Shown one piece after another: positions 30,401 to 44,880 of a stretch of 64,000 nucleotides of DNA. Positions within the stretch are counted from its first letter, which is position 1. Each line of letters opens with the position of its first letter. The stretch covers positions 62,001-126,000 of the forward strand of contig NZ_AUFT01000017.1 in NCBI RefSeq assembly GCF_000426645.1, in the 5' to 3' direction. A model generated the notes under the pieces. That model saw only the letters and a list, made by a program, of their open reading frames with translations, did no database searches and had not been told where the DNA came from. A program made the position numbers and the translations under genes. Origin of the DNA: Nakamurella lactea DSM 19367 (GTDB taxonomy: Bacteria > Actinomycetota > Actinomycetes > Mycobacteriales > Nakamurellaceae).

Positions 30401-30802
30401 ACGTAGCGCCGCGCTACCGGATCTACGTTTCCTGGGATACGGCGGCGCGCTCACGCCGTGGCCTCCGAGGTGTTCGGGTGTGGCCGACGGGACTGGCATC
30501 GAGATTCCCCCGGACGCGTGCTGTCAGTGGCTCACTGCGACGCCTAGCTACGGAACGTGTTAGTCGATAGGGCAATCAGGGGACGAGATCTCCGTTATCG
30601 AATCGTTATCGCCCGGTAGTCTTCGTTTCCGGGGCACAGTGTCGAATCGCGAAGCTGGCCTTCACCCGCGCGGGCGTTCGCCAGGTTGATCGCCGTCAAG
30701 GCAGTGGGTAACGTTTCGGCAGCAGCGACAGAAATTCTGGATAACGAACTATTCGCAGATTCTCGAAGTCTGCTATCGAATGAATTCTTAGGAGTTACTA
30801 CG
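30401..30802. other. Non-coding region with a weak hairpin and a probable promoter
   Basis: About 400 bases without a believable gene. Right after the stop of the StrF-like gene, 30403-30408 and 30412-30417 form a six-pair hairpin (GTAGCG-CCG-CGCTAC), a weak terminator candidate. The last ~100 bases are clearly richer in A and T than the surroundings and end with GGAG eight bases before the next start, so a promoter for the beta-helix gene probably lies there. Confidence 0.5.
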
Positions 30803-32686
30803 ATGCCACGCCGATCAGGAGGCCACGCCGTCCAGCCCAAGGGTTCGGCAAGGCGGGCTGCGCCACGTTTGCTGGTGTCCATCCTCATGTTGCTCGGGGT
30901 GGCGGGCGTCGTCGGCACTGCCGGCGCGACCGCCGCCGTCAGTACCTCTGGCTTGGCCGCGGTCCCCGCGTCGACCGGGAATTGGATCTGGTCCAACGCC
31001 ACCAAGCCCCGATCGGGCGCTGACCCCGACACGAAGAAGGTCGAGCTTGGCGTTCGCTTCAAGCCCTTGCAGACCGGCACCGTCGACGCGATTCGGTACT
31101 ACAAGCTGGCCCAAACAAAACCCGCGACCGCAGCGACATTGTGGAGTCCCGAGGGCAAGGTGTTGGCGCGAGCGACATTCAGCGCGACGAGCGCAACGGC
31201 CGTCGGCTGGCAGGTCGCGACGCTTCCGCACCAGGTTACTGTTCTCGCAAACAAGTCATACGTTGCGTCGTACACCGCGCCGGCCGGGCGATACCCGGCG
31301 GATCAGTACACGCTCGGCGGTAGGTCTCAAGTCAGCAACGGTCACGCGACGGCACAATCCAGCGTATACAGCTATGCGCTCGGGTATCCGACCTATACGT
31401 GGAACAACGCCAACTACTTTGTCGATGTCCGGATCAAGAACGGATCGACCGGGGCCACCGGGTCGGTGACACCTCCCAAGCCGACTGCAACGAGCAAGCC
31501 GACGGCGAGCAAGCCCACCACGACCAAGCCGACCACGACCAAGCCGACGACGAATAAGCCGACCACGACAAGGCCGACGACCAGCAAGCCCACCACGACC
31601 AAGCCGACGACGACGGTTCCGACGACGACCAAGCCGACGACGACGGTTCCGACGACGACCAAGCCGACGACGACCAGGCCGACGACGACGGTTCCGACGA
31701 CGACCAAGCCGACCACCACGCCTCCTACTTCGACGCCTCCTCCGACGAGCGCCGGATGTGTCGGTGCGGCAAACACGCCGGGCGGCCCCGATCCGTGGGG
31801 AGGGTGCTGGCCCGGCCCGCAGAACACCGGGTATCCGCACGGGCTCCCGGGCGACACGCGCAAACCGGTCACTCTGACGAACTACACCGGGCCGACCACC
31901 ATCAAGTCCTGTGGTGTGGTGATCGACTCGAAGATAGTGAATGACACCATTCTCGTTCAGGTGGGTAACGGAACGCACAGCGCTTCGACGCCGTGCGTGA
32001 CGATCAAGAACAGCCTGGTGAAGGGTGTCATCTTTGCCGAGCAGGACAACTACGGTCCGGTCCTTGTCACGGACACGGAGGTGGTCCCGTCCGACCTCCC
32101 ATGGTGGGAGAACATTGGACGCAGCAATATCTTCGTGTACCGCGTGAATTCGCACGGCGGTCAGGGCGTCATCAAGTGCGATTCATATTGTGAGGCAAAG
32201 GACAATTGGGTCCATGGCATGAATCTGGGCCTCGAGTACCACTACAACGCTTTCGGTGGCAACGGCACGAATCAGTTCGTGATCGACCACAACTGGGCAT
32301 CATGCGGTGACTGGGACAAGGTGTCGAGCCCGGGCGGCGACGCCGGCTGTTCCGCGGACATCGGCTTCTATGGTGACTTCGCGCCGATCCAGAACGTGAC
32401 CATCAACCGCAATTTCCTGGCTGGTTCGCGGATCAATTCGGCAGTGCCGAACGCGTCCGATCGTCAACCCGGATACTGCCTGAATCCGGGCTACTACCCG
32501 GGTAAGCCCTATCCCGCTCCCTCGAACGTCAAGGTGACGGACAACATCTTCGGACGTGGCTACAACGGGAAGTGTGGCGTCTTCGGACCGACGAACAGCC
32601 TGAACGGCGTTGGCAAGCCCAACGGCAACACCTGGTCCGGCAATCGGTACGACAACGGCGCAGCGATCGGGCGACCGGAGGAGTGA
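30803..32686 (+). CDS. Secreted DUF4082 protein with Thr/Pro/Lys stalk and right-handed beta-helix-like C-terminal domain
   Basis: The 627-residue protein has an Arg-rich N-terminus and signal sequence (hydrophobic at ~22-45). A single DUF4082 module follows (~56-213; WIWSNATKP, GVRFKPLQTGTVDAIRYYK, YPTYTWNNANYFVDV), then a stalk of about 100 residues built from TKPTTT and TVPTTT repeats, then a ~305-residue domain rich in Asn, Gly and aromatic residues. Repeated short strands such as TIKSCGVVIDSKIV, TIKNSLVKGVIF and TINRNFLAG look like parallel beta-helix coils, a fold used by polysaccharide lyases and other carbohydrate-active proteins. No catalytic residues can be assigned. The ATG follows GGAG by eight bases. 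The shared DUF4082 module links it to the 1701-residue protein at 14984. Thr-rich stalks of this kind are often O-glycosylated and span the cell wall. Confidence 0.85.
   Translation: MPRRSGGHAVQPKGSARRAAPRLLVSILMLLGVAGVVGTAGATAAVSTSGLAAVPASTGNWIWSNATKPRSGADPDTKKVELGVRFKPLQTGTVDAIRYYKLAQTKPATAATLWSPEGKVLARATFSATSATAVGWQVATLPHQVTVLANKSYVASYTAPAGRYPADQYTLGGRSQVSNGHATAQSSVYSYALGYPTYTWNNANYFVDVRIKNGSTGATGSVTPPKPTATSKPTASKPTTTKPTTTKPTTNKPTTTRPTTSKPTTTKPTTTVPTTTKPTTTVPTTTKPTTTRPTTTVPTTTKPTTTPPTSTPPPTSAGCVGAANTPGGPDPWGGCWPGPQNTGYPHGLPGDTRKPVTLTNYTGPTTIKSCGVVIDSKIVNDTILVQVGNGTHSASTPCVTIKNSLVKGVIFAEQDNYGPVLVTDTEVVPSDLPWWENIGRSNIFVYRVNSHGGQGVIKCDSYCEAKDNWVHGMNLGLEYHYNAFGGNGTNQFVIDHNWASCGDWDKVSSPGGDAGCSADIGFYGDFAPIQNVTINRNFLAGSRINSAVPNASDRQPGYCLNPGYYPGKPYPAPSNVKVTDNIFGRGYNGKCGVFGPTNSLNGVGKPNGNTWSGNRYDNGAAIGRPEE
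31500..31735 (+). repeat. In-frame tandem repeat encoding TKPTTT / TVPTTT stalk
   Basis: Units of 15-30 bases around AAGCCGACGACGACC and GTTCCGACGACGACC repeat in phase with the reading frame. Because unit lengths are multiples of three, copy changes would lengthen or shorten the stalk without breaking the gene. Confidence 0.85.
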
Positions 32687-32727: not shown

Positions 32728-33630
32728 CTACCCGGCTTCTCCCGACCCGTTCCGTGGTTGCAGGATGACCTTGATCCGGTCTAGGGCATCGCGGCCGAAG
32801 AGCGTCAGGATCAGGTGCTTGCCGGCGCTCCGAACTCGCTCCCGGCTAGTGCGGGCAGGCGAGACCACGAAACGATCGAGGTTCAGTTCCCGCGCACTGG
32901 GTTCGGGCAAGCCGTCCAGGGCGGACGGAAAGAGCCGCCGGAACGGACCGGGTGATGCCAGGCGCCCCCTCACCCGGTTGCTGACGTTGGAACCATGCAC
33001 TACTTGCATCCAGCCGGCGTCGCCACCGATCTCGATCGCCGGCATGAGCTTGTCGAAGTCCGTGTGCCATTCTGACCAACAGGTGGCAGTTGGAGTGGCC
33101 CAGGGCGTTCGAACCGAGTTGAATGCGTTGCGCGGATACCTGTGCGTGTAGAGCCGCCCCCCGGTACGGATCAGCCCGTTTCGCACATAGATCGCACTCT
33201 GGAACTCAGCAACGGAACCGCCCTGCAAGCGAGCGATGAAGTCGGTCGCGATGACGTCGTCATTGTCGAGATTGGTGGTGAGCAGATCGTCGGCGGGCGT
33301 CCCGATGATCGTTCGGATGTCCGAAATCATCTGCTCGGTCGATACGGATTCCCGAAAGACCGGGACGAAGGTTCCATCGTGCTCGTACTTGGCGATCATT
33401 TGACGCAGCCACTGCGGGCTCGCCGGGTCGAAGTAGATGAGCCAGGTGAAGTGTCGGTTGGTCTGTCCGACCACCGACGGCACGGTGAAGCGCTCGAACA
33501 GCGACACCCGCTCGCGCAACCAGCCATCCTTCGCACGGATCAGCTCCTGTACTCCAGCCGACGGCAGGTTGAACCGGGTGAGTAGGACATGATTCGCCGT
33601 GCGCTCGGCGGGGCTTTCGCCTTCGGACAC
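32728..33630 (-). CDS. Putative rhamnosyltransferase-family glycosyltransferase
   Basis: The 300-residue protein matches the family annotated as putative rhamnosyl transferase (DUF3118-type): NHVLLTRFNLP at the start, SLFERFTVPSVVGQTNRHFTWLIYFD, the LTTNLDNDDVI metal-type motif (~118-128) and a C-terminal GSNVSNRV segment. The enzymes are GT-A-like and the family name is not proof that the donor is dTDP-rhamnose; no rhamnose genes (rmlABCD) are in the window. It starts with GTG three bases after the stop of the Wzz-like gene at 33634, on the same strand, so both form a two-gene operon that converges on the beta-helix protein gene. Confidence 0.82.
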   Translation of the reverse strand: MSEGESPAERTANHVLLTRFNLPSAGVQELIRAKDGWLRERVSLFERFTVPSVVGQTNRHFTWLIYFDPASPQWLRQMIAKYEHDGTFVPVFRESVSTEQMISDIRTIIGTPADDLLTTNLDNDDVIATDFIARLQGGSVAEFQSAIYVRNGLIRTGGRLYTHRYPRNAFNSVRTPWATPTATCWSEWHTDFDKLMPAIEIGGDAGWMQVVHGSNVSNRVRGRLASPGPFRRLFPSALDGLPEPSARELNLDRFVVSPARTSRERVRSAGKHLILTLFGRDALDRIKVILQPRNGSGEAG

Positions 33631-35456: not shown

Positions 35457-36824
35457 ATGCCAGCTCCACGGGCCCCAGGACTCCGACCGAGCGCGAGCGC
35501 TGCGCCGGGCTTGGATGCGACGTCCGTGCTGACTGTCTACGTCGTCCTGCTGCTCGCCATCCCGTCGGCCATGCGGCTTGCGCCCCTAGGTTCGGCCGGC
35601 GCGCCATCGACCGTGATGGCGATCGGCGCGCTCTTCTGGTGGGTGTGGTTCCACCTCCACCGCAACTGGCGGCTCTTCGACGGGTTCCAGCCCGTGAAGA
35701 TGGCCATCCTGGCCTGGCTGATCAGCATGTTCGTGGTGTACGCGCACGCCATGTCGTCGCCGATGTCCGGTGACGAGATCAGCCCCGCCGACAACGGCAT
35801 GCTGAAGCTGGTTGGGTTGTCCGGGATTGCGCTCATCGCCAACGATGGCATCGTGAGTCTGGAGCGCCATCGCACGGTCATCCGTCGACTGGTGATCGGC
35901 GTCGGACTCGTCGCCATCCTCGGGCTGCTGCAGTACTCGACCAAGCAACTGTTCATCGATCGGATTCAGATTCCCGGGCTGACGTCCGGAGCCTCCGGAC
36001 TGACCCTGGCCGAGCGCAGCGGCCTCACCCGGCCGAGTGGCACCTCCACCCATCCCATCGAGTACGGCGTCGTTTTGACCATGGTCCTTCCGTTGTGCGT
36101 GGCCTATGCGATGCACGCGCCCAGGCGTCGATGGCTGTACAGGGTGGTCCTCGGCGCCGTCGCGTTGGCGGTCGTTCTGTCGATCTCCCGGTCCGCCCTG
36201 CTCTGTGCGGCCGTCGGACTGATCGTGCTTGGTTCCTCTTGGTCGGCTGCTGCACGGCTCAAGGCGTTGGCGTTCGCCGGCGCCACCGCCGTTGTCGTCT
36301 ACCTTTCCTCGCCGGGTGTACTGGGCACGCTGACCAATCTGTTCACCGGTGCCTCCGACGATCCGAGTATCGCTTCGCGAACCGGGAGCTTCGACGTCGC
36401 CGGGCAATTCATCAGCCGCAGCCCGTGGCTCGGAAGAGGGTTCGGAACCTTCTTGCCGAAGTATTGGATCCTGGACAACGGGTATCTCGGTTTACTCATC
36501 GAGGGCGGGGTTCTGGGGTTCGGCGGACTGCTGATCGTCATCGGGTCGGCGATCTGGGTCGCCCGCCAGGCACGCAAGGCGGCACGCAGCGACTTCGACC
36601 GTGAGCTCTCCCAGGCACTGGTGGCATCGGTCGCTGCAGGTGCCTGCGGGCTGGCATTCTTCGACACGTTCGCGTTCCCGCAGTCGGCCGGTACCTTCTT
36701 CCTGCTCATCGGCCTGGCCGGCGCCTCGTTACGCCTGCAATTGGCCGACCGATCAGGTACGAGCGCGACCAGCTTCGACGATCAGGCGGGATTCCTGCCC
36801 GGAATCAAGGCCGCACGCCGGTGA
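35457..36824 (+). CDS. O-antigen ligase / Wzy-type polymerase family membrane protein
   Basis: The 455-residue protein has about 11-12 membrane helices and one large outer loop (~165-200; LTRPSGTSTHPIEYG), which is the pattern of the Wzy_C / O-antigen ligase family. The second loop (SDDPSIASRTGSFDVAGQFISRSPWLGRGFGTF, about 300-330) carries the R-x-x-x(x)-W-x-G-x-G-type motif common in these enzymes. In a Gram-positive cluster with a flippase and co-polymerases, polymerisation of lipid-linked repeat units is a better guess than ligation to lipid A. It begins 12 bases after the Wzz-like gene and overlaps the next gene by four bases. Confidence 0.88.
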   Translation: MPAPRAPGLRPSASAAPGLDATSVLTVYVVLLLAIPSAMRLAPLGSAGAPSTVMAIGALFWWVWFHLHRNWRLFDGFQPVKMAILAWLISMFVVYAHAMSSPMSGDEISPADNGMLKLVGLSGIALIANDGIVSLERHRTVIRRLVIGVGLVAILGLLQYSTKQLFIDRIQIPGLTSGASGLTLAERSGLTRPSGTSTHPIEYGVVLTMVLPLCVAYAMHAPRRRWLYRVVLGAVALAVVLSISRSALLCAAVGLIVLGSSWSAAARLKALAFAGATAVVVYLSSPGVLGTLTNLFTGASDDPSIASRTGSFDVAGQFISRSPWLGRGFGTFLPKYWILDNGYLGLLIEGGVLGFGGLLIVIGSAIWVARQARKAARSDFDRELSQALVASVAAGACGLAFFDTFAFPQSAGTFFLLIGLAGASLRLQLADRSGTSATSFDDQAGFLPGIKAARR

Positions 36825-37732
36825 GCAGCGATATGCCAGTGGTCGCTGCCGTCGTCGTGACCTATAACAGTGCGAGCCACCTTGGCGACCTTCTCGACAG
36901 TTTGCCTGCGGCGTTCGGATCGGTATCGGGCGTGACCGTCGTGGTCGACAACGGATCCACGGACGGCACTCTCGATCTCGCGAGGTCTCGAACAGACTGC
37001 ATCGTCATCGCCGAAACCAACCGTGGATATGGCGCCGGACTGAACCGGGGGGCCCAGCAGGTCGACGAGGCCGACTTCGTACTTGCGCTGAACCCGGACG
37101 CAACACTTCGACCCGGTTCGATCGAAGCGCTGGTGGCCGCGTCGGCGAGCCGACCGGACGCCGGGGTCGTGGTGCCGAAGGTTTTCGAACTCGACGACGA
37201 ACTCTCCCTTTCGCTGCGCCGGGACCCCACTCTGGGCCGGGTAGGCGGTCTGAGCTTCACCAAGAGTCCGCGGTTCTCCGAGATCGTCTACGACCCCGAC
37301 GAGTATCGGCGTGAGCACGTCGTCGACTGGGCGATGGGCGCCGTCATGCTCATCCGCCGGGAATGCTGGGATGCATTGGACGGCTTTGACGAGTCCTACT
37401 TCCTCTACTCCGAGGAGACAGACTTCTGCCTGCGTGCCCGCGACCGAGGTTGGACAACGCTGTACGCACCGACGGCCGTGGTGATGCACATCGGCGGCGG
37501 TTCGGGCGAGAGCACCACCACCCACGTGATGAAGATGGTCAATCGGGTGCGGATCTACCGTCGGCGGCACAAGGCGCTGGCTTCGGGGACCTACCTCGTG
37601 CTTGCCGTGGTCACCGAGGTGCGACGGGCCCTTCTCGGGCGCCGGGCGTCGTGGGCAGCCGCAAACGCGCTTCTCCGCCCGTCTCGTCGTCCTGCAGCGC
37701 TCGGCTGCAGCGACAGTTGGCTGCCGAAGTGA
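36821..37732 (+). CDS. Glycosyltransferase family 2 (rhamnosyltransferase/galactofuranosyltransferase-like)
   Basis: The 303-residue GT-A enzyme starts with GTG overlapping the previous stop. It has VAAVVVTYNSASHL, VVVDNGSTDGT, RGYGAGLNRGAQ, the metal-binding NPDA and the acceptor/catalytic part DWAMGAVMLIRRECWDALDGFDESYFLYSEETDFCLRARDRG. This last motif, F-D-E-x-[YF]-F-x-Y-x-E-D/E-x-D, is typical of the WbbL-like GT2 group that adds rhamnose or galactofuranose. It has no membrane helices. It ends only nine bases from the convergent acyl carrier protein gene, with no space for a separate terminator. Confidence 0.92.
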   Translation: MSSDMPVVAAVVVTYNSASHLGDLLDSLPAAFGSVSGVTVVVDNGSTDGTLDLARSRTDCIVIAETNRGYGAGLNRGAQQVDEADFVLALNPDATLRPGSIEALVAASASRPDAGVVVPKVFELDDELSLSLRRDPTLGRVGGLSFTKSPRFSEIVYDPDEYRREHVVDWAMGAVMLIRRECWDALDGFDESYFLYSEETDFCLRARDRGWTTLYAPTAVVMHIGGGSGESTTTHVMKMVNRVRIYRRRHKALASGTYLVLAVVTEVRRALLGRRASWAAANALLRPSRRPAALGCSDSWLPK

Positions 37733-37741
37733 GTTGAGTCG

Positions 37742-38017
37742 TCAGACCGGCTGCGGACCGGTGGCGCTTCGCTGAACGAACTCGGCCAAACTGCCGACGG
37801 TCTCGAAGATGTCGCCGGTGAAGTCGCTGTCGTCGATCACGAAGTCGAACCGCTCCTCGAGCGCGGCCGCCAACTCTACGACGGCGAGGGAGTCGAGTTC
37901 CGGCATACTTCCGAACAGGGGTGTGCTGGCCTCCAGCGACGACACCCGATCCTGGATCCCGAGCGTGGTGCCGAGAACTTCCTTGACGCCCTCCAGCGTC
38001 GACGAGCTGATATCCAT
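37742..38017 (-). CDS. Acyl carrier protein of an aminoacyl/acyl-modification operon
   Basis: The 91-residue acidic protein is a stand-alone phosphopantetheine carrier: a four-helix bundle with the attachment motif ELDS43LAVVELAAALEE. It is not the fatty-acid-synthesis carrier: its motif is LDSLAVVEL rather than the DSLDxVEL-type sequence of AcpP-like proteins, and it sits with an AMP-forming ligase and a PLP decarboxylase instead of fatty acid genes. The ATG at 38017 is six bases after GGAG. It is the last gene of the minus-strand operon that starts at 41774. The likely role is to hold a substrate as a thioester while the decarboxylase acts on it. No phosphopantetheinyl transferase is in the window. 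Confidence 0.92.
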   Translation of the reverse strand: MDISSSTLEGVKEVLGTTLGIQDRVSSLEASTPLFGSMPELDSLAVVELAAALEERFDFVIDDSDFTGDIFETVGSLAEFVQRSATGPQPV

Positions 38018-38062
38018 TCGCTACTCCATTCTGTGGATGGTGGGTGAATCGATCGTGAGGTG

Positions 38063-39289
38063 CTACACTAGGACCTCGGCCGGCGCCGGATGGCCGAGGA
38101 AGGCAGTGGGGCTGGCCGTCAGACCGTAGGCGCCGGCCTGGAACAGCACGATCAGGTCACCGACGTCTGCCCGCGGCAGCGCAACGTTGTCGCCGAGCAG
38201 ATCCAGCGGCGTGCACAGACAACCAACCACCGTCACCTCCTCGGCGGCGTCCGTCAGCGAGCGGGTGGCAACGGCGATCGGATAGTTCCGCCGGATCACC
38301 TGGCCGAAGTTGCCCGAAGCCGCCAGTTGGTGGTGCATTCCGCCGTCGACCACCAGATAGGTCTTGCCGCGCGACACCTTCCGATCGACCACCCGCGTCA
38401 CGTACACCCCGGATTCGCCGACAATGTAGCGGCCCAGCTCGACGACCACCCTGGCGTCGGGCAGGTTCGGCCGGATCGACTCGTCCAGCAGCGCAGCGAG
38501 ATTGTCACCGATCGCCGGCAGGTCCAGCGGTCGGTCCTTGTCGAAGTACGGGATGCCGAATCCGCCGCCCAGGTTCAGATACCGGATGGGCCACGGTGTC
38601 TTGTCGGCCAGCTCCAGCACCAGGGCGACGGTCTTGCGCTGCGCGTCGCAGAGGATCTCGGCATTCAGGTTCTGCGAGCCCGGAAAGACATGGAACCCCT
38701 GAAACTCCAGATCCGCGGCGGCCAGATCGGTCAGCATCCCGGGAACCTGCTCGACGTCGACGCCGAACTGTTGCGGGCCCCCGCCCATCCGCATCCCCGA
38801 GCCCTTCACCTGGAAGTCCGGGTTGATGCGAATCGCCACCCGCGGCCGGATGCCGAGCTGGTTGCCGACCCGCACTACCCGGTCGGCCTCGGTCGGCGAC
38901 TCCATCTCGATGGTCACCCCGGCGGCCACGGCCTGGGTCAGCTCGGCGTCAGTCTTTCCAGGGCCGGCGAAGCTCACCCGGTCGCCCGGCGTCGGGGTGT
39001 CCAATGCCGCCCGCATCTCCAACGCCGACGCGACATCGAGCGAATCGACCAAGCCGGCGACATGGTGGATCACTGCCGGCATCGGGTTCGCCTTGACCGC
39101 ATAGCTGAGATGGATCCCGGCCGGCAAGGTGCTCCGCAGCAGCCCGATCCGTTCGGTGATGAGCCGACGGTCGTAGGCGAAATAGGGGGTCGACCCGACT
39201 CGCTCGGTCAGCCGGCCGACCGGTATTCCGCCGACCGCCAGCCGCCCGTCCGGACCGGCGAAGGCGGCGATGCTGGGGCGCTCACTCAC
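38063..39289 (-). CDS. Type III PLP-dependent decarboxylase, exosortase-A-system-associated type (BtrK/LysA fold)
   Basis: The 408-residue protein has the alanine-racemase/LysA fold: the PLP lysine K66 in SYAVKANP, FAGPGKTDAEL, FHVFPGSQNLN in place of the HIGSQ loop, [22 protein letters not shown] and the second-subunit Cys motif GCLCTPLDLLG. These variants match the family known as pyridoxal-dependent decarboxylase, exosortase A system-associated, and are related to BtrK, which decarboxylates glutamate while bound to a carrier protein in butirosin biosynthesis. The GTG start overlaps the ligase stop by four bases. True diaminopimelate decarboxylase (LysA) is less likely, given the context and the changed substrate loop. 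The amino acid it acts on is not evident. Confidence 0.88.
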   Translation of the reverse strand: MSERPSIAAFAGPDGRLAVGGIPVGRLTERVGSTPYFAYDRRLITERIGLLRSTLPAGIHLSYAVKANPMPAVIHHVAGLVDSLDVASALEMRAALDTPTPGDRVSFAGPGKTDAELTQAVAAGVTIEMESPTEADRVVRVGNQLGIRPRVAIRINPDFQVKGSGMRMGGGPQQFGVDVEQVPGMLTDLAAADLEFQGFHVFPGSQNLNAEILCDAQRKTVALVLELADKTPWPIRYLNLGGGFGIPYFDKDRPLDLPAIGDNLAALLDESIRPNLPDARVVVELGRYIVGESGVYVTRVVDRKVSRGKTYLVVDGGMHHQLAASGNFGQVIRRNYPIAVATRSLTDAAEEVTVVGCLCTPLDLLGDNVALPRADVGDLIVLFQAGAYGLTASPTAFLGHPAPAEVLV

Positions 39290-40875
39290 TGGCCGATCTC
39301 CTCACGCAGGCGTACCCGGTCGAACTTGCCGTTGGGCGATCTGGGCAGCTCTGGCCTGACCACCACTGTCGACGGGAGCATGTACAGCGGCAGCTGCCGG
39401 CGCATCACCGCGAGCAGTTCCTTCGTGTCGAGATCCTGCCCGGCAACCGGACTGGCCACCAGCAGCACCCGCTGCCCGAGCTTCGCATCGTCCATGCCGA
39501 GTGCCACGGCGTCCCGCACCAGGCCACTGGCGAAGGCGACCTCTTCGATCTCGGTCGGGCTCACCCGATAGCCCGAGGTCTTGATCATTTCGTCGGTGCG
39601 CCCGACGAAGTAGAGAAAGCCGTCCTCGTCCCTGGTCACCCCGTCGCCCGACCAGACGGCCAGCTCCGGCGCGCGCCAGCTCGCGTCCCGCTCCCGTCCG
39701 GGTACCGGACGGAATCGCTCGGCGGTGCGATCCGGATCGTTCCAATAGCCCAGCGACACCAGCGCACCCCGGTGGACCAGCTCGCCCTCCTCGCCGGGAT
39801 CGCATTCGGTGCCGTCCGGGCGGACCACCAGAATCTCCGCGTTCGGGATGGCCTTGCCGATCGAGTCGGGTCGTCGATCGACCTCCGCAGGATCCAAGTA
39901 CGTCGACCGGAACGCCTCGGTCAACCCGTACATCAGGAACGGCGCCGCCTGTGGGAAATGCCCGCGGAGCTTGTCGAGCGTCGACTTGGGCATCCGCCCG
40001 CCGGTGTTGGCGAAGTACCGCAAGGTGGCCGCCGCCTCCGGTGGCCAGGCCAGATCCGCGATCTGGATCCACAGCGGGGGGACACAGGTGAGCCCGGTGA
40101 CGCCGTGTCGGGCACACAGTCTGACCACGTCGGCCGGCAACAGGTAGTTCATCAGGACCACGTGCGCGCCGACGCCGAAGGCGGTGGTCAATTGGCTGAA
40201 TCCGGCGTCGAAGCTCAGCGGCAGGGCCGACAGAATCACGTCCTCGGCGGTGTTCGCCAGGTACTGGCTGACGCTTTCGGCGCCGACGATCAGGTTCCGG
40301 TGACTCAGTACCACCCCCTTCGGCTTGCCGGTGCTCCCCGACGTGTACAGGATCGCGGCGATATCCAGATCGATGCCGTCACGATCGATCTCGCCGAGCC
40401 CGTCGGAGGTGAACTCCTCGTCCCACGAACGCACCCGGACGCCGGGCACAGTGCCTGCCGCTGCCGATGATTGGCCGCCGCCGACGACAATGACGAGCTC
40501 GACGGAAGGTCGGGCGCCGAGCTCGTCCGTGAGCTGCGTCAGTCGTTCCGGCGAGGTGACCAGGACCCGAACGTCGCAGTTCCCGAGGATGTAGCCGACC
40601 TGCGCCGGGCGCAGCAGCGGATTGATCGGGACGAAGACGCCGCCGGCGGCCGAGGTGCCGAAGATGGCCGCCACGGTTTCGATGCGCTTGTCGAGCAGGA
40701 TCGCGACCCGGTCGCCGCGCTCGAGTCCGGACCCGATCAGGCCACGGGCGACGGACTGCACCGTGCGCCACAGGTCTTGGTAGCTGCAGGTCTCATCCTT
40801 GTAGGTGAGTGCCGGCCGAGACCCGTGGATGCCGGCGCTGTCCTGCAAGAGGTGGTGCAGCTGAGTTCTGATCAC
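39286..40875 (-). CDS. AMP-forming acyl/aminoacyl ligase, exosortase-A-system-associated type
   Basis: The 529-residue protein belongs to the ANL superfamily. It has the ATP-binding P-loop YTSGSTGKPKG (177-187), MYGLTEAFRSTY (A5 region), the A8 hinge GRTDEMIKTSGYRVSPTEIEE and the catalytic lysine K517 in NGKFDR. The family pairs with the decarboxylase next door in exosortase A loci, where it is called acyl-CoA ligase, but here a carrier protein in the same operon is the natural acceptor. It would activate a carboxylic or amino acid as an adenylate and load it on the carrier. The GTG at 40875 is six bases after AAGGAG. The operon order is GNAT-like, ligase, decarboxylase, carrier. Confidence 0.9.
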   Translation of the reverse strand: MIRTQLHHLLQDSAGIHGSRPALTYKDETCSYQDLWRTVQSVARGLIGSGLERGDRVAILLDKRIETVAAIFGTSAAGGVFVPINPLLRPAQVGYILGNCDVRVLVTSPERLTQLTDELGARPSVELVIVVGGGQSSAAAGTVPGVRVRSWDEEFTSDGLGEIDRDGIDLDIAAILYTSGSTGKPKGVVLSHRNLIVGAESVSQYLANTAEDVILSALPLSFDAGFSQLTTAFGVGAHVVLMNYLLPADVVRLCARHGVTGLTCVPPLWIQIADLAWPPEAAATLRYFANTGGRMPKSTLDKLRGHFPQAAPFLMYGLTEAFRSTYLDPAEVDRRPDSIGKAIPNAEILVVRPDGTECDPGEEGELVHRGALVSLGYWNDPDRTAERFRPVPGRERDASWRAPELAVWSGDGVTRDEDGFLYFVGRTDEMIKTSGYRVSPTEIEEVAFASGLVRDAVALGMDDAKLGQRVLLVASPVAGQDLDTKELLAVMRRQLPLYMLPSTVVVRPELPRSPNGKFDRVRLREEIGQ

Positions 40876-40904
40876 CGCGGGCTCCTTGATCGTGCAGTCA
40901 TGGT

Positions 40905-41774
40905 CTACCAGGCCACGCTGGTGAGTTCGCTGTACAGATAGTCGATCTGATCCGGCTGCAGGGTCTGGCTGCGGAACATCTTCGGGCGCGGCTTCTTCAG
41001 CGCCACCGAGAGCTTCGGCGCGGCGCCGACGACGCGGAGTTCCGCGAGGGTTGCCGGCAACCGGTGGCGCAACAGGAAATGCCGGTAGACGAGGCTCGCC
41101 GTCTCGCGGAACAGTTCCCGGTTCGAGACATACAGGATCGACGCGAACAGCGGCAGGTTCTTGCGCCGGTCCTTGCGGAAGATGAGGTAGCAGTAGTCGT
41201 CATTGCGGCGGACCACCAGGTGCTGGGCCGCGGCCGCTGTCAGGTGGTCGCGGTAGATCTCGAGATCGCCGCCGCGGAGGGTCTGCGCGATCGCCCGCCG
41301 GTCGGTCACAATTCGGGCGCGCGCCGGCCACAGCGGCCAAGGCAGGTTGGGGACCAGAGCCGTGGCCGTATCGAGTTGTTGGAACTTGAGCCGGAGGTTC
41401 AAGGCCACCACATTGCCGCTCGGCGACAGATCGGTGAAGTGATAGCCCCGTTGACCGAGCAGGCTGCGGAGCAGCCGCAGACCTTGCGATCGGTAGTCCT
41501 CCAAAACGCACCACGCTGCGAGATTGCAGAAGCGCTCTGCGCGCCCCGCCATCACCCGTTCGGAGTACAACGCGAGATAGACTCCCACTACCTCGTCCGG
41601 GGTCCGCAGCAGGTAGCCGTGGTTCGGTTGTTCGGCGTGCCAAGGGGGTTGAAGTGCCGACGCCCAGGCCGCCGCATCTACCCGGGAATTGAGGTTGACG
41701 TGCAGAAAATCGGCCACCGACGGTAGGTCCGCGGCGGTGATCGGTTCGACGACAGCGGGACGAACAACCGGCAT
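40905..41774 (-). CDS. GNAT/FemAB-like acyltransferase candidate of the carrier-protein operon
   Basis: This 289-residue protein (from the ATG at 41774; a GTG at 41792 is also in frame) begins with a GNAT-type region: PITAADLPSVADFL, LLRTPDEVVGVYLALYS, then CNLAAWCVLEDYRSQGLRLLRSLLG, which looks like the acetyl-CoA/phosphopantetheine-binding motif, and SPSGNVVALNLRLKFQQLD. The C-terminal half has no clear match. GNAT enzymes transfer acyl groups from CoA or from carrier-bound thioesters. As first gene of an operon with an acyl carrier protein, it is a good candidate for moving the carrier-bound product to an amine or sugar. Sequence alone does not prove this. No Shine-Dalgarno is clear at either start. 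It diverges from the glycosyltransferase at 41950. Confidence 0.75.
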   Translation of the reverse strand: MPVVRPAVVEPITAADLPSVADFLHVNLNSRVDAAAWASALQPPWHAEQPNHGYLLRTPDEVVGVYLALYSERVMAGRAERFCNLAAWCVLEDYRSQGLRLLRSLLGQRGYHFTDLSPSGNVVALNLRLKFQQLDTATALVPNLPWPLWPARARIVTDRRAIAQTLRGGDLEIYRDHLTAAAAQHLVVRRNDDYCYLIFRKDRRKNLPLFASILYVSNRELFRETASLVYRHFLLRHRLPATLAELRVVGAAPKLSVALKKPRPKMFRSQTLQPDQIDYLYSELTSVAW

Positions 41775-41949
41775 GGGGTTAAAGTACTGCACGAGGGTGC
41801 TCGACGTGAAGGCTCCGTTACGCTCAGTGGTCGATCTGTTGTCGTAGAGCGCACTCGATCACTGGATTGGGCGTTGTCGGAAGGTGCTGTCGATCGCGAC
41901 GGAGAGGCGACCAGGTGTACGACATTCTCGGGCAGATCCGGACGACGCC

Positions 41950-42855
41950 GTGACGAGCGTGGTGATCGCGGCTCACAACGAATCCGCCGTCATCGGCCGT
42001 TGTCTCGATGCACTGCTGGCCGACGCAGCCCCGGGCGAACTCGACGTCACCGTGGTGGCGAACGGGTGCACCGATGCGACCGCGAGTGTCGCCGCCGCTC
42101 GGCCCGGCGTGCGAGTCGTCGACACCGCGGAGGCCGGCAAGGCCAAAGCGCTGAACCTGGGCGACGCCGTCGCCGTCGGGTATCCACGGATCTACCTCGA
42201 TGCCGACATCACGGCGTCGACCTTTGTCGTGCGGACGTTGGTCGAGGCGCTGGATCGGGGCGCGCGGCCGCCGGCCGGAGGCATTCCCGTGCTTGCCGTC
42301 GTCCCCCGCCGAGAACTCGACGTCCGGGGGAGACCACTGCTGGTTCGTGGCTACTTCGCGATCAACAAGAGACTTCCGGCCTTCCGGAGCGGTCTGTTCG
42401 GTCGGGGGGTGATCGCCCTGTCCGAAGCCGGCCGGCGAAGGTTCGACACCTTCCCGGAAATGGTCGCCGACGACCTGTTCCTCGATTCCCTGTTCGACGC
42501 TGCGGAAAAGCAGGAAGCCACCGCCGTCGCGACGGTGGTGGCGGCTCCGCTACGGACCAGGGACTTGGTGCGCAGGTTGGTCCGGGTACGCCGCGGGAAT
42601 GCCGCGATGCGGGCCGCCGGCCGATCCGGCGAGGTCGCGGTAGACGTGCGGCACGCGGATCGATGGGCCTGGCTCCGGGAGGTGGTGCTGCCGCAGCCCT
42701 GGCTCGCGCCCGCCGCGGTCGTGTACGTCGGGATCACCGCCCTCGCTGCCGTCCTTGCGCGCCGGTCGTCATCGAACGGCGATTCCTGGGGGCGGGACGA
42801 GTCGACCCGAACAAAGGCGGAAGCCATGAACGACGGCGAGGATTCCGATGGCTGA
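41950..42855 (+). CDS. Glycosyltransferase family 2
   Basis: The 301-residue GT-A enzyme begins MTSVVIAAHNESAVIGRCLDALL and has VTVVANGCTDAT, AGKAKALNLGDAVA, the DXD metal motif in YLDADITA and MVADDLFLDSLF in the catalytic region, plus one hydrophobic helix near the C-terminus (~255-275). Longer starts, up to the GTG at 41884, add residues unlike the family; I chose the GTG at 41950. It resembles membrane-associated transferases of the hyaluronan synthase/dolichol-phosphate type. The gene overlaps the deacetylase start by eight bases. The sugar is unknown. It lies divergent to the GNAT-ligase-decarboxylase-carrier operon. Confidence 0.87.
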   Translation: MTSVVIAAHNESAVIGRCLDALLADAAPGELDVTVVANGCTDATASVAAARPGVRVVDTAEAGKAKALNLGDAVAVGYPRIYLDADITASTFVVRTLVEALDRGARPPAGGIPVLAVVPRRELDVRGRPLLVRGYFAINKRLPAFRSGLFGRGVIALSEAGRRRFDTFPEMVADDLFLDSLFDAAEKQEATAVATVVAAPLRTRDLVRRLVRVRRGNAAMRAAGRSGEVAVDVRHADRWAWLREVVLPQPWLAPAAVVYVGITALAAVLARRSSSNGDSWGRDESTRTKAEAMNDGEDSDG

Positions 42856-43513
42856 TCGACTGCTGAACATCTGCTTCCACGGTATCGGGGAGCCCGGCCG
42901 CGAGCTGGAACCGGGTGAGGACCGGTACTGGATCGGGGTGGACCAATTCCACCGGATCCTCGATGAGATCGCGACCTGGCGCAACGTCAGGATCAGCTTC
43001 GATGACGGCAATCGGTCGGATCTCGAGTACGGACTTCCCGCACTGGTCGAAAGGGATCTGCATGCGACCTTCTTCGTCCTGGCGGGCCGGCTCGGGCAGC
43101 CCGGCAGCCTGGCCGAGGACGATGTTCGCGCCCTCGACCGAGCGGGGATGACGATCGGCACCCACGGGATGAACCATCGACCCTGGCGCGGAATGGCTTC
43201 GCAGGAACGGGAAATCGAGCTCGTCGAGGCCCGAGAGCGCATCGCGGATGCCAGTGGACGCCCGGTCGACCAAGCGGCGTTGCCTTTGGGGCGCTACGAC
43301 CGACAACTGCTGAGTTCCCTGAGGGGGCTGGGATATACCCGAGTATTCTCCAGCGATCGGCGTGCCTCGTCGGCAGGATCTTGGCTGCAGCCCAGGTTCA
43401 GCGTCCGCGTCGACGACAGCGCGAGTTCGATGAGGTCGACAGTTCTTCCGGTGCCCGCATTCTCATCGCAGCTGAAGGTTCAGCTGAAGGGCGTGGCCAA
43501 GAGGCTGCGCTGA
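42848..43513 (+). CDS. Polysaccharide deacetylase (NodB homology, carbohydrate esterase 4)
   Basis: The 221-residue protein shows the metal-binding NodB motifs: RISFDDGN with D52 and D53, and TIGTHGMNH with H106 and H110. The later motif P-x-G-R-Y-D (~147) replaces the usual R-x-P-Y/W-G, and the end of the domain is short. No signal peptide or anchor is visible, so it may act on a lipid-linked or cytoplasmic intermediate rather than on exported polymer. CE4 enzymes remove N-acetyl groups from GlcNAc or related sugars; a free amine so formed could be the acceptor for the product of the neighbouring carrier-protein operon. ATG at 42848 overlaps the previous gene. Confidence 0.85.
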   Translation: MADRLLNICFHGIGEPGRELEPGEDRYWIGVDQFHRILDEIATWRNVRISFDDGNRSDLEYGLPALVERDLHATFFVLAGRLGQPGSLAEDDVRALDRAGMTIGTHGMNHRPWRGMASQEREIELVEARERIADASGRPVDQAALPLGRYDRQLLSSLRGLGYTRVFSSDRRASSAGSWLQPRFSVRVDDSASSMRSTVLPVPAFSSQLKVQLKGVAKRLR

Positions 43514-43557
43514 AAGGTTCGTAGTTGTCGCGATTCGAATCAGCTGAAAGGACCGGG

Positions 43558-44880
43558 ATGCGCGAGCGCGTTCTCGTCATCGTCCAAAACCTGCCGGTGC
43601 CGCTGGACCGCCGGGTCTGGTTGGAATGCCAGGCGTTGACGGCCGCGGGGTACTCCGTCAGCGTGATCTGCCCGAAGGGGCCCGGCGACCCGGCCCGGCA
43701 GGAGATCGACGAGGTGGCGATCTACAAATACCGGCCGGCACCGGAGGCGCGAGGCCTCGGCGGCTTCGTCATCGAGTTCGTCTACTCCTGGCTGCGCACC
43801 GCGTGGCTGTCGCTGCGGGTGCGACGCGAGCGCGGCTTCGACGTGATCCAGGCCTGCAACCCTCCGGACACCTACTGGCTGCTGGCCCGGCTCTGGCGGC
43901 TGCGAGGCGTCACGTTCGTCTTCGACCAGCACGACCTGAATCCGGAGTTGTACCTGTCCAGGTTCGGCGAACCGACCTCGATCGGGGGAAAAGTGCAGTA
44001 CGGCGGCCTGCGCTGGCTGGAGCGGATGACGTACCGGACCGCGGCCAGGGTGATCTCCACCAATGAGTCGTACAAGAAGATCGCGGTCACCCGCGGCCAC
44101 CGTGACCCGGCCGATGTCACCGTGGTGCGCAGCGGCCCGGACACCCGACAGATGCGCCCGGTGTACCCGCCCGAGGACATCAGGGGCGAGGCCGAGCACC
44201 TGCTGGTGTACCTGGGCATCATGGGCCCGCAGGACGGCGTCGACACCGTGCTGGAGGTGATCGACGAGCTGGTGCACCGGCGCGGCCGCACCGGCCTGCG
44301 CGCCGCGCTGCTCGGCTTCGGCGACTGCCTGGACGACCTGAAGGCCCAGTGCACCAGACTCGGGCTGGACGACGTGGTCACCTTCACCGGCCGGGCCGAC
44401 AAGGCGATGGTCGCCGATTACCTGAGCGCCGCCGATGTCGGCCTGTGTCCGGACCGCAAGACCCCGCTCAACGACGTGTCGACGATGAACAAGACGATGG
44501 AATACATGGCGTACGCGCTGCCATCGGTCGCCTTCGACCTGGTCGAGACCAGAGTCTCCGGCGGCGACACGGTGCTGTACGTCGAATCGGGCGATGTTCA
44601 GGCATTCGCCGACGCGGTGGAGAAGCTGCTCGATGACCCGGACTTGCGGGCCGATCTCGGTATCGCCGCCCGCACCCGGGTGGCCGACGAACTGGACTGG
44701 CGTCCCCAGGCCGAACGCTACGTCTCGGTGTTTGACGCCGTCAGCGGCCGGAAAGCCTTGCCCGCGACCGGTTCAGAGAGCCGATCGGCCGGCGCCGGCA
44801 CCAGCCCGGCCGGCCGCGATTTCGTCGACCTGACCAACGAGGACGAATTCCGCCGGTTCGTCATCCAGCGGCGCCGGTAG
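43558..44880 (+). CDS. Glycosyltransferase family 4 (WbuB-like)
   Basis: The 440-residue GT-B enzyme starts MRERVLVIVQNLPVPLDRRVWLE, a beginning shared by a large actinobacterial group. It continues with FDVIQACNPPDTYWLLA, FVFDQHDLNPELY, ISTNESYKKIA, LVYLGIMGPQDGVD, FGDCLDDLKA and LNDVSTMNKTMEYMAYALPSVAFDLVE, where the E-x7-E region is recognisable. The ATG at 43558 lies five bases after AAAGGA; the frame extends eleven codons upstream without support. The last ~40 residues are a disordered tail. It ends the plus-strand group GT2-deacetylase-GT4 and converges with the beta-propeller-like gene. Confidence 0.92.
   Translation: MRERVLVIVQNLPVPLDRRVWLECQALTAAGYSVSVICPKGPGDPARQEIDEVAIYKYRPAPEARGLGGFVIEFVYSWLRTAWLSLRVRRERGFDVIQACNPPDTYWLLARLWRLRGVTFVFDQHDLNPELYLSRFGEPTSIGGKVQYGGLRWLERMTYRTAARVISTNESYKKIAVTRGHRDPADVTVVRSGPDTRQMRPVYPPEDIRGEAEHLLVYLGIMGPQDGVDTVLEVIDELVHRRGRTGLRAALLGFGDCLDDLKAQCTRLGLDDVVTFTGRADKAMVADYLSAADVGLCPDRKTPLNDVSTMNKTMEYMAYALPSVAFDLVETRVSGGDTVLYVESGDVQAFADAVEKLLDDPDLRADLGIAARTRVADELDWRPQAERYVSVFDAVSGRKALPATGSESRSAGAGTSPAGRDFVDLTNEDEFRRFVIQRRR

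Follow-up and report, generated by a model that had tools for sequence, protein, structure and literature searches.

What do an adenosine monophosphate (AMP)-forming ligase and a pyridoxal phosphate-dependent decarboxylase, of two families that NCBI has named solely for their association with exosortase A, do in a genome in which no exosortase is found? The question is raised by a stretch of 64,000 nt from Nakamurella lactea DSM 19367 (GCF_000426645.1, NZ_AUFT01000017.1 positions 62,001–126,000, forward strand), hereafter the window, in which these two genes form an operon with the genes of a GNAT-like acyltransferase and a stand-alone acyl carrier protein. We propose that the operon probably makes an amine-bearing acyl group on the carrier and moves it to an amino sugar of a surface polysaccharide. 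We infer this chemistry from what the analysis shows, namely the genes and the families to which they belong, the way they recur as a set, the conserved residues and a fold predicted for the acyltransferase.

Recurrence of the four genes as a cassette

The four genes of the operon are open frames that follow one another on the minus strand (41792–37742), and the ligase stop and the decarboxylase start overlap by four bases (GTGA, 39289–39286). These coordinates and frames bear out the four same-strand genes and the overlap from which the original prediction of the operon had started. When the products were compared with family models, the ligase and the decarboxylase scored above the curated cut-offs of TIGR03098 (592 bits) and TIGR03099 (478 bits), respectively, and the carrier protein above that of PF00550 (20.8 bits).

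Because the acyltransferase is without a family model, it alone was used as the query in a scan of named genomes, in which the 80 best of the 100 confirmed matches yielded 78 distinct loci; gene calls at some of these and other relatives' loci were made by a simple script. Of the 78, 60 contained the decarboxylase, 55 the ligase and 62 the carrier; the complete set of four was present in 53, of which 44 kept the gene order of the window on one strand within 6 kb. Ligase and decarboxylase were adjacent in 52 of the 53 full-cassette loci, and carrier and decarboxylase in 55 of 60; a carrier gene of some kind was present in 73 of the 78. TIGR03099 was exceeded in only two of 296 sampled genomes of the phylum, namely that of N. 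lactea and one other (G143), which holds a full cassette (locus L042) with an acyltransferase of 42% identity. Since the decarboxylase is so rare in the phylum and yet occurs in 60 of 78 loci found by the acyltransferase, the co-occurrence goes beyond chance. Five loci had none of the partners, one of them (L115) lying at a contig end. All five genomes encode a decarboxylase elsewhere, with 67–73% identity in four and 43% in Devosia crocina, where it may be of another kind.

No exosortase (PF09721) was matched in a profile search of the N. lactea genome (5.82 Mb, 98% complete), which extends to the whole genome the earlier remark that none stands beside the operon. The 78 loci come from 74 genomes, whose completeness is not stated, and none of these contained a match over the cut-off (L100, L108, L126 and L134 were omitted as second loci of genomes already covered), nor did 15 genomes searched separately, whereas xrtA of a Sphingomonas plasmid record, the positive control, was recovered at 215 bits. 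Membership in an exosortase A system was rejected on these grounds, and the recurrence of the four genes without exosortase, which the original prediction had left to be checked in actinobacteria, is supported by the 53 full-cassette loci in actinobacteria and rhizobia. A sub-cut-off exosortase-like match of 20.9 bits was seen in Actinoplanes sp. DH11 (genome G323, contig C246, 158539–158910).

The cassette is distributed over soil actinobacteria and root-nodule bacteria. Host genera named for the 78 loci include, among actinobacteria, Micromonospora, Actinoplanes, Nocardioides, Cryobacterium and Mycolicibacterium and, on the rhizobial side, Bradyrhizobium, Mesorhizobium, Rhizobium, Sinorhizobium and Devosia. 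The idea of a decoration confined to Gram-positive bacteria did not hold, for rhizobia, among them many strains of Sinorhizobium meliloti, carry the cassette too. Among plasmid records, 34 matched the decarboxylase, 27 of them from Sinorhizobium; the cassette was found on records of S. meliloti, for example that of strain Rm41 (NC_018701), and on Aureimonas pAU20a, where it is accompanied by a deacetylase and glycosyltransferases. The pSymB record of S. meliloti 1021 gave no decarboxylase match, an empty result that is weak evidence by itself. Because many S. meliloti strains have the cassette on a large plasmid whereas its decarboxylase is not matched on this one, it seems to be an accessory trait. 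The accessible text of PMC5498481 and PMC12542648 concerns another S. meliloti polysaccharide cluster.

In a decarboxylase tree of 81 rows, from which L056 and decarboxylases of ≤150 bits, of <330 amino acids (aa) or with stops were excluded, the cassette enzymes formed one starred branch of 64 rows (support 95/89) with actinobacterial and rhizobial rows mixed. The rhizobial label changed five times in the best tree, of which the starred branches force only one, and the window enzyme was placed beside rhizobia with weak support (80/41). Transfer of the cassette between phyla is likely.

Residues bearing on the proposed carrier-bound chemistry

The nearest solved relative of the decarboxylase was BtrK (238 bits), followed by SbnH (158 bits). 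According to the accessible text of PMC7857480, which gives 6knk as the structure of SbnH, BtrK converts glutamyl-BtrI to gamma-aminobutyryl-BtrI, and FigC, SbnH, AcsE and MccE of the BtrK clade act on conjugated amino acids; DAPDC and D-ODC are also found in this clade. The loop with the catalytic Cys reads LCTPLD in the window enzyme, LCTPED in BtrK, LCTPKD in SbnH and CESGD in the LysA of N. lactea itself. Since LCTP is common to SbnH, it is not specific to BtrK. One place is Lys in SbnH and His in FigC, where it meets a citryl group (PMC7857480, same text), and Leu in the window enzyme; Leu at this place would fit a distal end without charge, for example a thioester. A relative of 49% identity in Azoarcus sp. 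KH32C (L142, 11872–13185), annotated as alanine racemase, lies near formaldehyde-activating and formylmethanofuran genes and is perhaps a decarboxylase of cofactor synthesis.

The ligase had been compared with BtrJ, but its pocket fragment matched VinN best among solved structures (107 bits, the next 61 bits). In the accessible text of PMC11253843, VinN activates 3-methylaspartate as a beta-amino acid, with D230 binding the amine, K330 and R331 in a shortened loop, and F231 and S299 opposite. The places of D230 and R331 are occupied by D223 and R323 of the window ligase, which aligned without a gap against the VinN loop. We take R331 of VinN to contact the alpha-carboxylate. All 75 ligases that were aligned have the Asp and Arg. 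Of these, 55 belong to the 78-locus set and 20 do not, the latter including two from S. meliloti strains (L056 and L061); rows of ≤150 bits, with an internal stop or of <80% length were excluded. These comprise 56 of 56 ligases from GNAT loci (the 55 and L056) and 12 of 12 from an actinobacterial lineage designated f19, and the pair also occurs in L042, L055, L057, L058, L061, L140 and the exosortase A (XrtA) locus L141. The place of F231 is Ala and that of K330 is Phe in 56 of 56 GNAT-locus ligases, neither VinN residue being kept; in L141 and L055, the former place is Tyr. As the change of F231 to Ala would give a larger cavity, Glu may be preferred over Asp. Among the substrates named by the original prediction, Glu and Asp appear to be favoured by the pocket Asp/Arg pair and the LCTPLD loop, whereas a diamino acid appears to be disfavoured.

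The carrier serine, which lies in a DSL motif in the window protein, was present in 69 of 69 extracted carrier homologs; the motif is DSL, DSM or DSA (at any position in the protein) in 53, DSF or DSY in 15 and HSM in one. As far as sequence comparison goes, the chemistry on a carrier-bound amino acid that had been proposed is supported by the nearest solved relatives, BtrK and, over the pocket, VinN. In the first step, the ligase would take an acidic L-amino acid (Glu being likelier than Asp), adenylate it at the side-chain carboxylate and load it onto the carrier phosphopantetheine, with D223 holding the amine and R323 the alpha-carboxylate. The BtrK-like decarboxylase would then remove the free alpha-carboxylate to give a gamma-aminobutyryl-carrier (or a beta-alanyl-carrier). 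We consider this loading and decarboxylation on the carrier to be quite likely.

The acyltransferase and its polysaccharide context

No NCBIfam or Pfam model matched the acyltransferase at E 0.001, and the best sequence match in the PDB was an unrelated protein (E 0.89). When Pfam matches at E up to 1 were allowed, PF00583 was found weakly for the window protein (E 0.093) and in 3 of 22 family members, and PF13527, which we take to be the GNAT domain found in Eis, in 1 of the 22 (E 0.01). The family is nevertheless large: 3022 homologs were found among 8000 scored candidates, and 119 of the matches listed had 59–69% identity, some of them from Bradyrhizobium and Sinorhizobium. The structure, confidently predicted, has two tandem GNAT domains across the whole chain, and whole-chain fold matches were N-myristoyltransferase, Eis and glucosamine N-acetyltransferases at about 10% identity. 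This predicted double-GNAT fold supports the original assignment as a GNAT-like acyltransferase.

The acyltransferase also occurs with other partners. Eleven of the 78 loci (Mycolicibacterium, Mycobacterium, Rhodococcus and Gordonia) hold an AMP ligase, a small phosphopantetheine-binding protein, a flavin adenine dinucleotide (FAD) amine oxidase and a KamA-like aminomutase, followed by the transferase; none of the 11 has a BtrK-like decarboxylase nearby, and in all 11 ligases the pocket Asp is kept and Met replaces the Arg. Macrolactam starter pathways alternate a decarboxylase and a glutamate 2,3-aminomutase, as the accessible text of PMC10662134 describes. On a Paludibaculum plasmid (L059, 10214–12858), a double-GNAT homolog of 31% identity stands beside FkbH (204 bits, cut-off 147) and polysaccharide genes. 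FkbH-type enzymes load a glyceryl group on carrier proteins. The swapped partners indicate different acyl makers used with the same transferase family, and the double-GNAT family apparently receives the acyl group from carrier proteins.

The acceptor is suggested by the surrounding genes. The NodB-type deacetylase that had been noted as divergent to the operon is borne out by its PF01522 match, one of three in the genome, and contains FDDG and THxxxH-type metal motifs. No signal peptide is visible by eye, which fits a cytosolic action before export. Of the 62 cassette loci, 42 had a NodB homolog in the stretch, as did 6 of the 11 loci of the aminomutase type, and homologs of the deacetylase, glycosyltransferase or Wzy genes of the window or the S. 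meliloti locus were present in 55 of 60 decarboxylase-bearing loci. Of the five without, L085, L092 and L093 contain sequences that, judged by eye, are aminotransferase-, WecB-, Wzz- or glycosyltransferase-like; L087 and the 6.5-kb L106 contain no such homologs in their stretches. The polysaccharide setting claimed for the operon thus holds for most loci, but not for these two nor, over 20 kb, for L042, which lies outside this set. PF01522 genes are present somewhere in the genomes of all six (L085, L087, L092, L093, L106 and G143). In the proposed last step, the double-GNAT protein would move the aminoacyl group to a sugar amine exposed by the NodB-type deacetylase, while the precursor is still cytosolic and has yet to be polymerised and exported. 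The net effect would be the replacement of a neutral N-acetyl by a positively charged N-acyl group. We regard a polysaccharide amine as the probable destination.

Several observations weigh against this proposal. The TM-scores of the fold matches are modest (0.34–0.58 by query in the top 50), and the acceptors of the matched-fold enzymes include peptides. For the whole ligase, multi-domain nonribosomal peptide synthetase (NRPS) chains (280 and 226 bits, as summed scores) outranked VinN (220 bits). Six loci pair the decarboxylase with another AMP ligase and no TIGR03098-like one (best NCBIfam match TIGR01733, below cut-off); this ligase has no Arg at the corresponding position, which can be aligned only with a gap. 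L128 has the decarboxylase with neither ligase found, so that these seven loci stand outside the pocket argument, and no close relative of the window ligase was found in any of their seven genomes at E 1e-100. L139 holds both kinds of ligase. Conversely, at L094 and L116 ligase and carrier occur without a neighbouring decarboxylase, and none was found in the L116 genome at E 1e-60. A NodB homolog was not seen in 20 of the 62 cassette loci, L087 lacks the polysaccharide homologs, and the full cassette of G143 has no homolog of a polysaccharide gene of the window within 20 kb.

The features of the locus are collected in Table 1, together with two related loci. The divergent GT2 glycosyltransferase and deacetylase genes overlap by 8 bases, and the gap between the acyltransferase start and the GT2 gene is 91 or 109 bases, depending on the start codon chosen. 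Inside the polysaccharide locus, the gene at 30686–32686 encodes a large DUF4082-domain protein (123.6 bits), and the family scan found two further glycosyltransferase-like proteins farther out.

Table 1. Coordinates of the operon, its neighbours and two related loci (window positions unless a locus is named; GT, glycosyltransferase)
Feature	Coordinates	Strand	Family match and remarks
Double-GNAT acyltransferase	40905–41774 (ATG, 289 aa) or 41792 (GTG, 295 aa)	-	Unnamed, widespread family; proposed omega-aminoacyl-carrier:amino-sugar N-acyltransferase
AMP-forming ligase	39286–40875	-	TIGR03098, 736 bits; VinN-like pocket D223, R323
PLP (pyridoxal phosphate)-dependent decarboxylase	38063–39289	-	TIGR03099, 584 bits; BtrK-like, LCTPLD loop
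Stand-alone acyl carrier protein, 91 aa	37742–38017	-	PF00550, 36.5 bits; phosphopantetheine serine S43
GT2 glycosyltransferase	41884–42855	+	PF00535; divergent from operon
NodB-type polysaccharide deacetylase	42848–43513	+	PF01522, 71 bits; FDDG and THGMNH motifs
GT4 glycosyltransferase	43525–44880	+	PF13692, 77 bits
GT2 glycosyltransferase, converging on carrier gene	36821–37732	+	PF13641, 65 bits
Wzy/O-antigen-ligase-like membrane protein	35457–36824	+	PF04932, 32.9 bits (cut-off 31.7)
Rhamnosyltransferase-like protein	32728–33630	-	PF11316, 120 bits
Aminomutase variant	L111 5202–10831		Aminomutase 152 bits to TIGR03820, below cut-off 525
Other AMP ligase paired with decarboxylase	L076 8564–10000		One of six such loci

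Alternative readings and known systems

The aminoacyl group might go to peptidoglycan or protein in the fashion of Fem enzymes rather than to an exopolysaccharide. Twelve sampled genomes of the f19 lineage have the ligase-decarboxylase pair but no double-GNAT homolog in the stretch; in one of its loci (L043, 7855–19238) the pair is accompanied by a carrier, a GNAT protein, three FemAB proteins and MurJ, which is possibly a set for carrier-fed branching of lipid II, and the pair of the Sphingomonas XrtA locus also stands with FemAB. Among the 20 window proteins covered by the family scans, however, there is no FemAB or MurJ, but glycosyltransferases, Wzy and NodB, and the transferase gave an hhalign probability of 0.3% with the XrtA FemAB, a single-sequence target. 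We consider such an acceptor unlikely here. It is likewise improbable that the operon makes a small diffusible metabolite, such as a butirosin- or macrolactam-like product or a siderophore piece, and lies in the polysaccharide locus by linkage only. The nearest characterised relatives, BtrK and VinN, do serve natural products, and in G193, a genome from this class, a related set of ligase, decarboxylase and carrier (L024/L055) lacks a double-GNAT gene; against this stand the polysaccharide homologs in 55 of 60 decarboxylase-bearing loci and the absence of polyketide synthase and NRPS among the 20 scanned proteins.

As to what is transferred, the family may accept several carrier-bound acids, so that an undecarboxylated or further modified amino acid would be moved and the product would vary by locus. 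The 11 aminomutase/oxidase loci, the FkbH neighbour of the 31% homolog and the lack of a decarboxylase near the ligase and carrier of L094 and L116 are in line with this; in the window, the overlap of decarboxylase and ligase leads us to expect a decarboxylated product, and we rate a varied product as rather improbable there. Very improbable is a decarboxylase that uses diaminopimelate or some other amino acid in free form, with the ligase and carrier serving lipid synthesis. The fold family is shared with LysA, and the LysA model TIGR01048 matched at 227 bits, but this is below its cut-off of 297.9 bits, which a separate, true LysA of the genome exceeds at 447 bits, and the loop is LCTPLD instead of CESGD; on these three grounds, a free diaminopimelate decarboxylase was rejected. 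Moreover, the decarboxylase gene overlaps that of the ligase, whose pocket is nearest to an amino-acid adenylating enzyme.

Beyond transfer to a polysaccharide amine at this locus, a wider scheme is offered tentatively. A portable, tRNA-independent kit of ligase, decarboxylase and carrier may feed omega-amino acids (gamma-aminobutyrate, GABA, or beta-alanine) to the double-GNAT protein in actinobacterial and rhizobial exopolysaccharide loci, to FemAB in exosortase A loci, and to FemAB beside MurJ in the f19 lineage. The double-GNAT protein would be a carrier-dependent amino-sugar N-acyltransferase that uses its own C-terminal carboxylate as a base and is fed elsewhere by the aminomutase module or FkbH. 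If this is true, it would account for the ligase and decarboxylase of exosortase A systems, which have lacked an explanation, and their two families would gain a testable job. An aminoacyl amide is predicted on surface sugars of nodule bacteria and of actinobacteria from the environment, and would represent a novel means of giving such sugars positive charge; exchanging N-acetyl for an amine-bearing N-acyl group would alter surface polymer charge, adhesion, and recognition by host or phage. No description of the cassette or of this amide was found in the literature searched, which did not include subscription literature. The analysis also brings a large unnamed acyltransferase family to attention.

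Among known double-GNAT N-acyltransferases, namely N-myristoyltransferase, Eis and the glucosamine type, the present protein would differ in taking its donor from a carrier protein instead of coenzyme A. With butirosin biosynthesis (BtrI/BtrJ/BtrK) the operon shares the presumed carrier-bound amino acid and a decarboxylase nearest to BtrK, whereas the adenylating ligase and the polysaccharide setting are different; BtrJ is of another type. The vicenistatin and fluvirucin starter pathways (VinN/VinL/VinO and FlvO; accessible text of PMC10662134 and PMC11253843) resemble it in the VinN-type ligase, the stand-alone carrier and the decarboxylase. The window ligase differs from VinN in the pocket, where A, F and T replace F231, K330 and S299, respectively, no polyketide synthase is among the 20 scanned proteins, and the product is expected to reach an acyltransferase.

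The exosortase A (XrtA/PEP-CTERM) system is alike in having TIGR03098 and TIGR03099 members over the cut-offs with a carrier and a polysaccharide deacetylase nearby. In the Sphingomonas locus (L141, 8622–25104), carrier, ligase, decarboxylase, XrtA deacetylase and a FemAB protein lie in one cluster, which suggests that this FemAB is fed by a carrier protein. PMC1569441 (Haft 2006) makes no mention of a decarboxylase, ligase, FemAB or acyl carrier. The N. lactea system is unlike it in the lack of exosortase and in its double-GNAT transferase, with no FemAB among the 20 window proteins scanned. This transferase showed no relation to either of two proteins of the XrtA locus, the FemAB and a hypothetical protein next to the carrier; probabilities were <1% against these single-sequence targets, and homology was rejected.

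In Nod-factor synthesis, NodB deacetylates the sugar and NodA, an N-acyltransferase, puts a fatty acid on the freed amine, with NodF as the carrier. No Pfam model of NodA matched any of the 22 acyltransferase family members at E up to 1, which rules out NodA homology at this level of sequence comparison, and the predicted group is a short aminoacyl on a polysaccharide product. The logic of a deacetylase, a dedicated carrier and an N-acyltransferase acting on a freed amine is nevertheless the same. By analogy with these systems, the operon would use carrier chemistry of the butirosin and vicenistatin type in a Nod-factor-like scheme.

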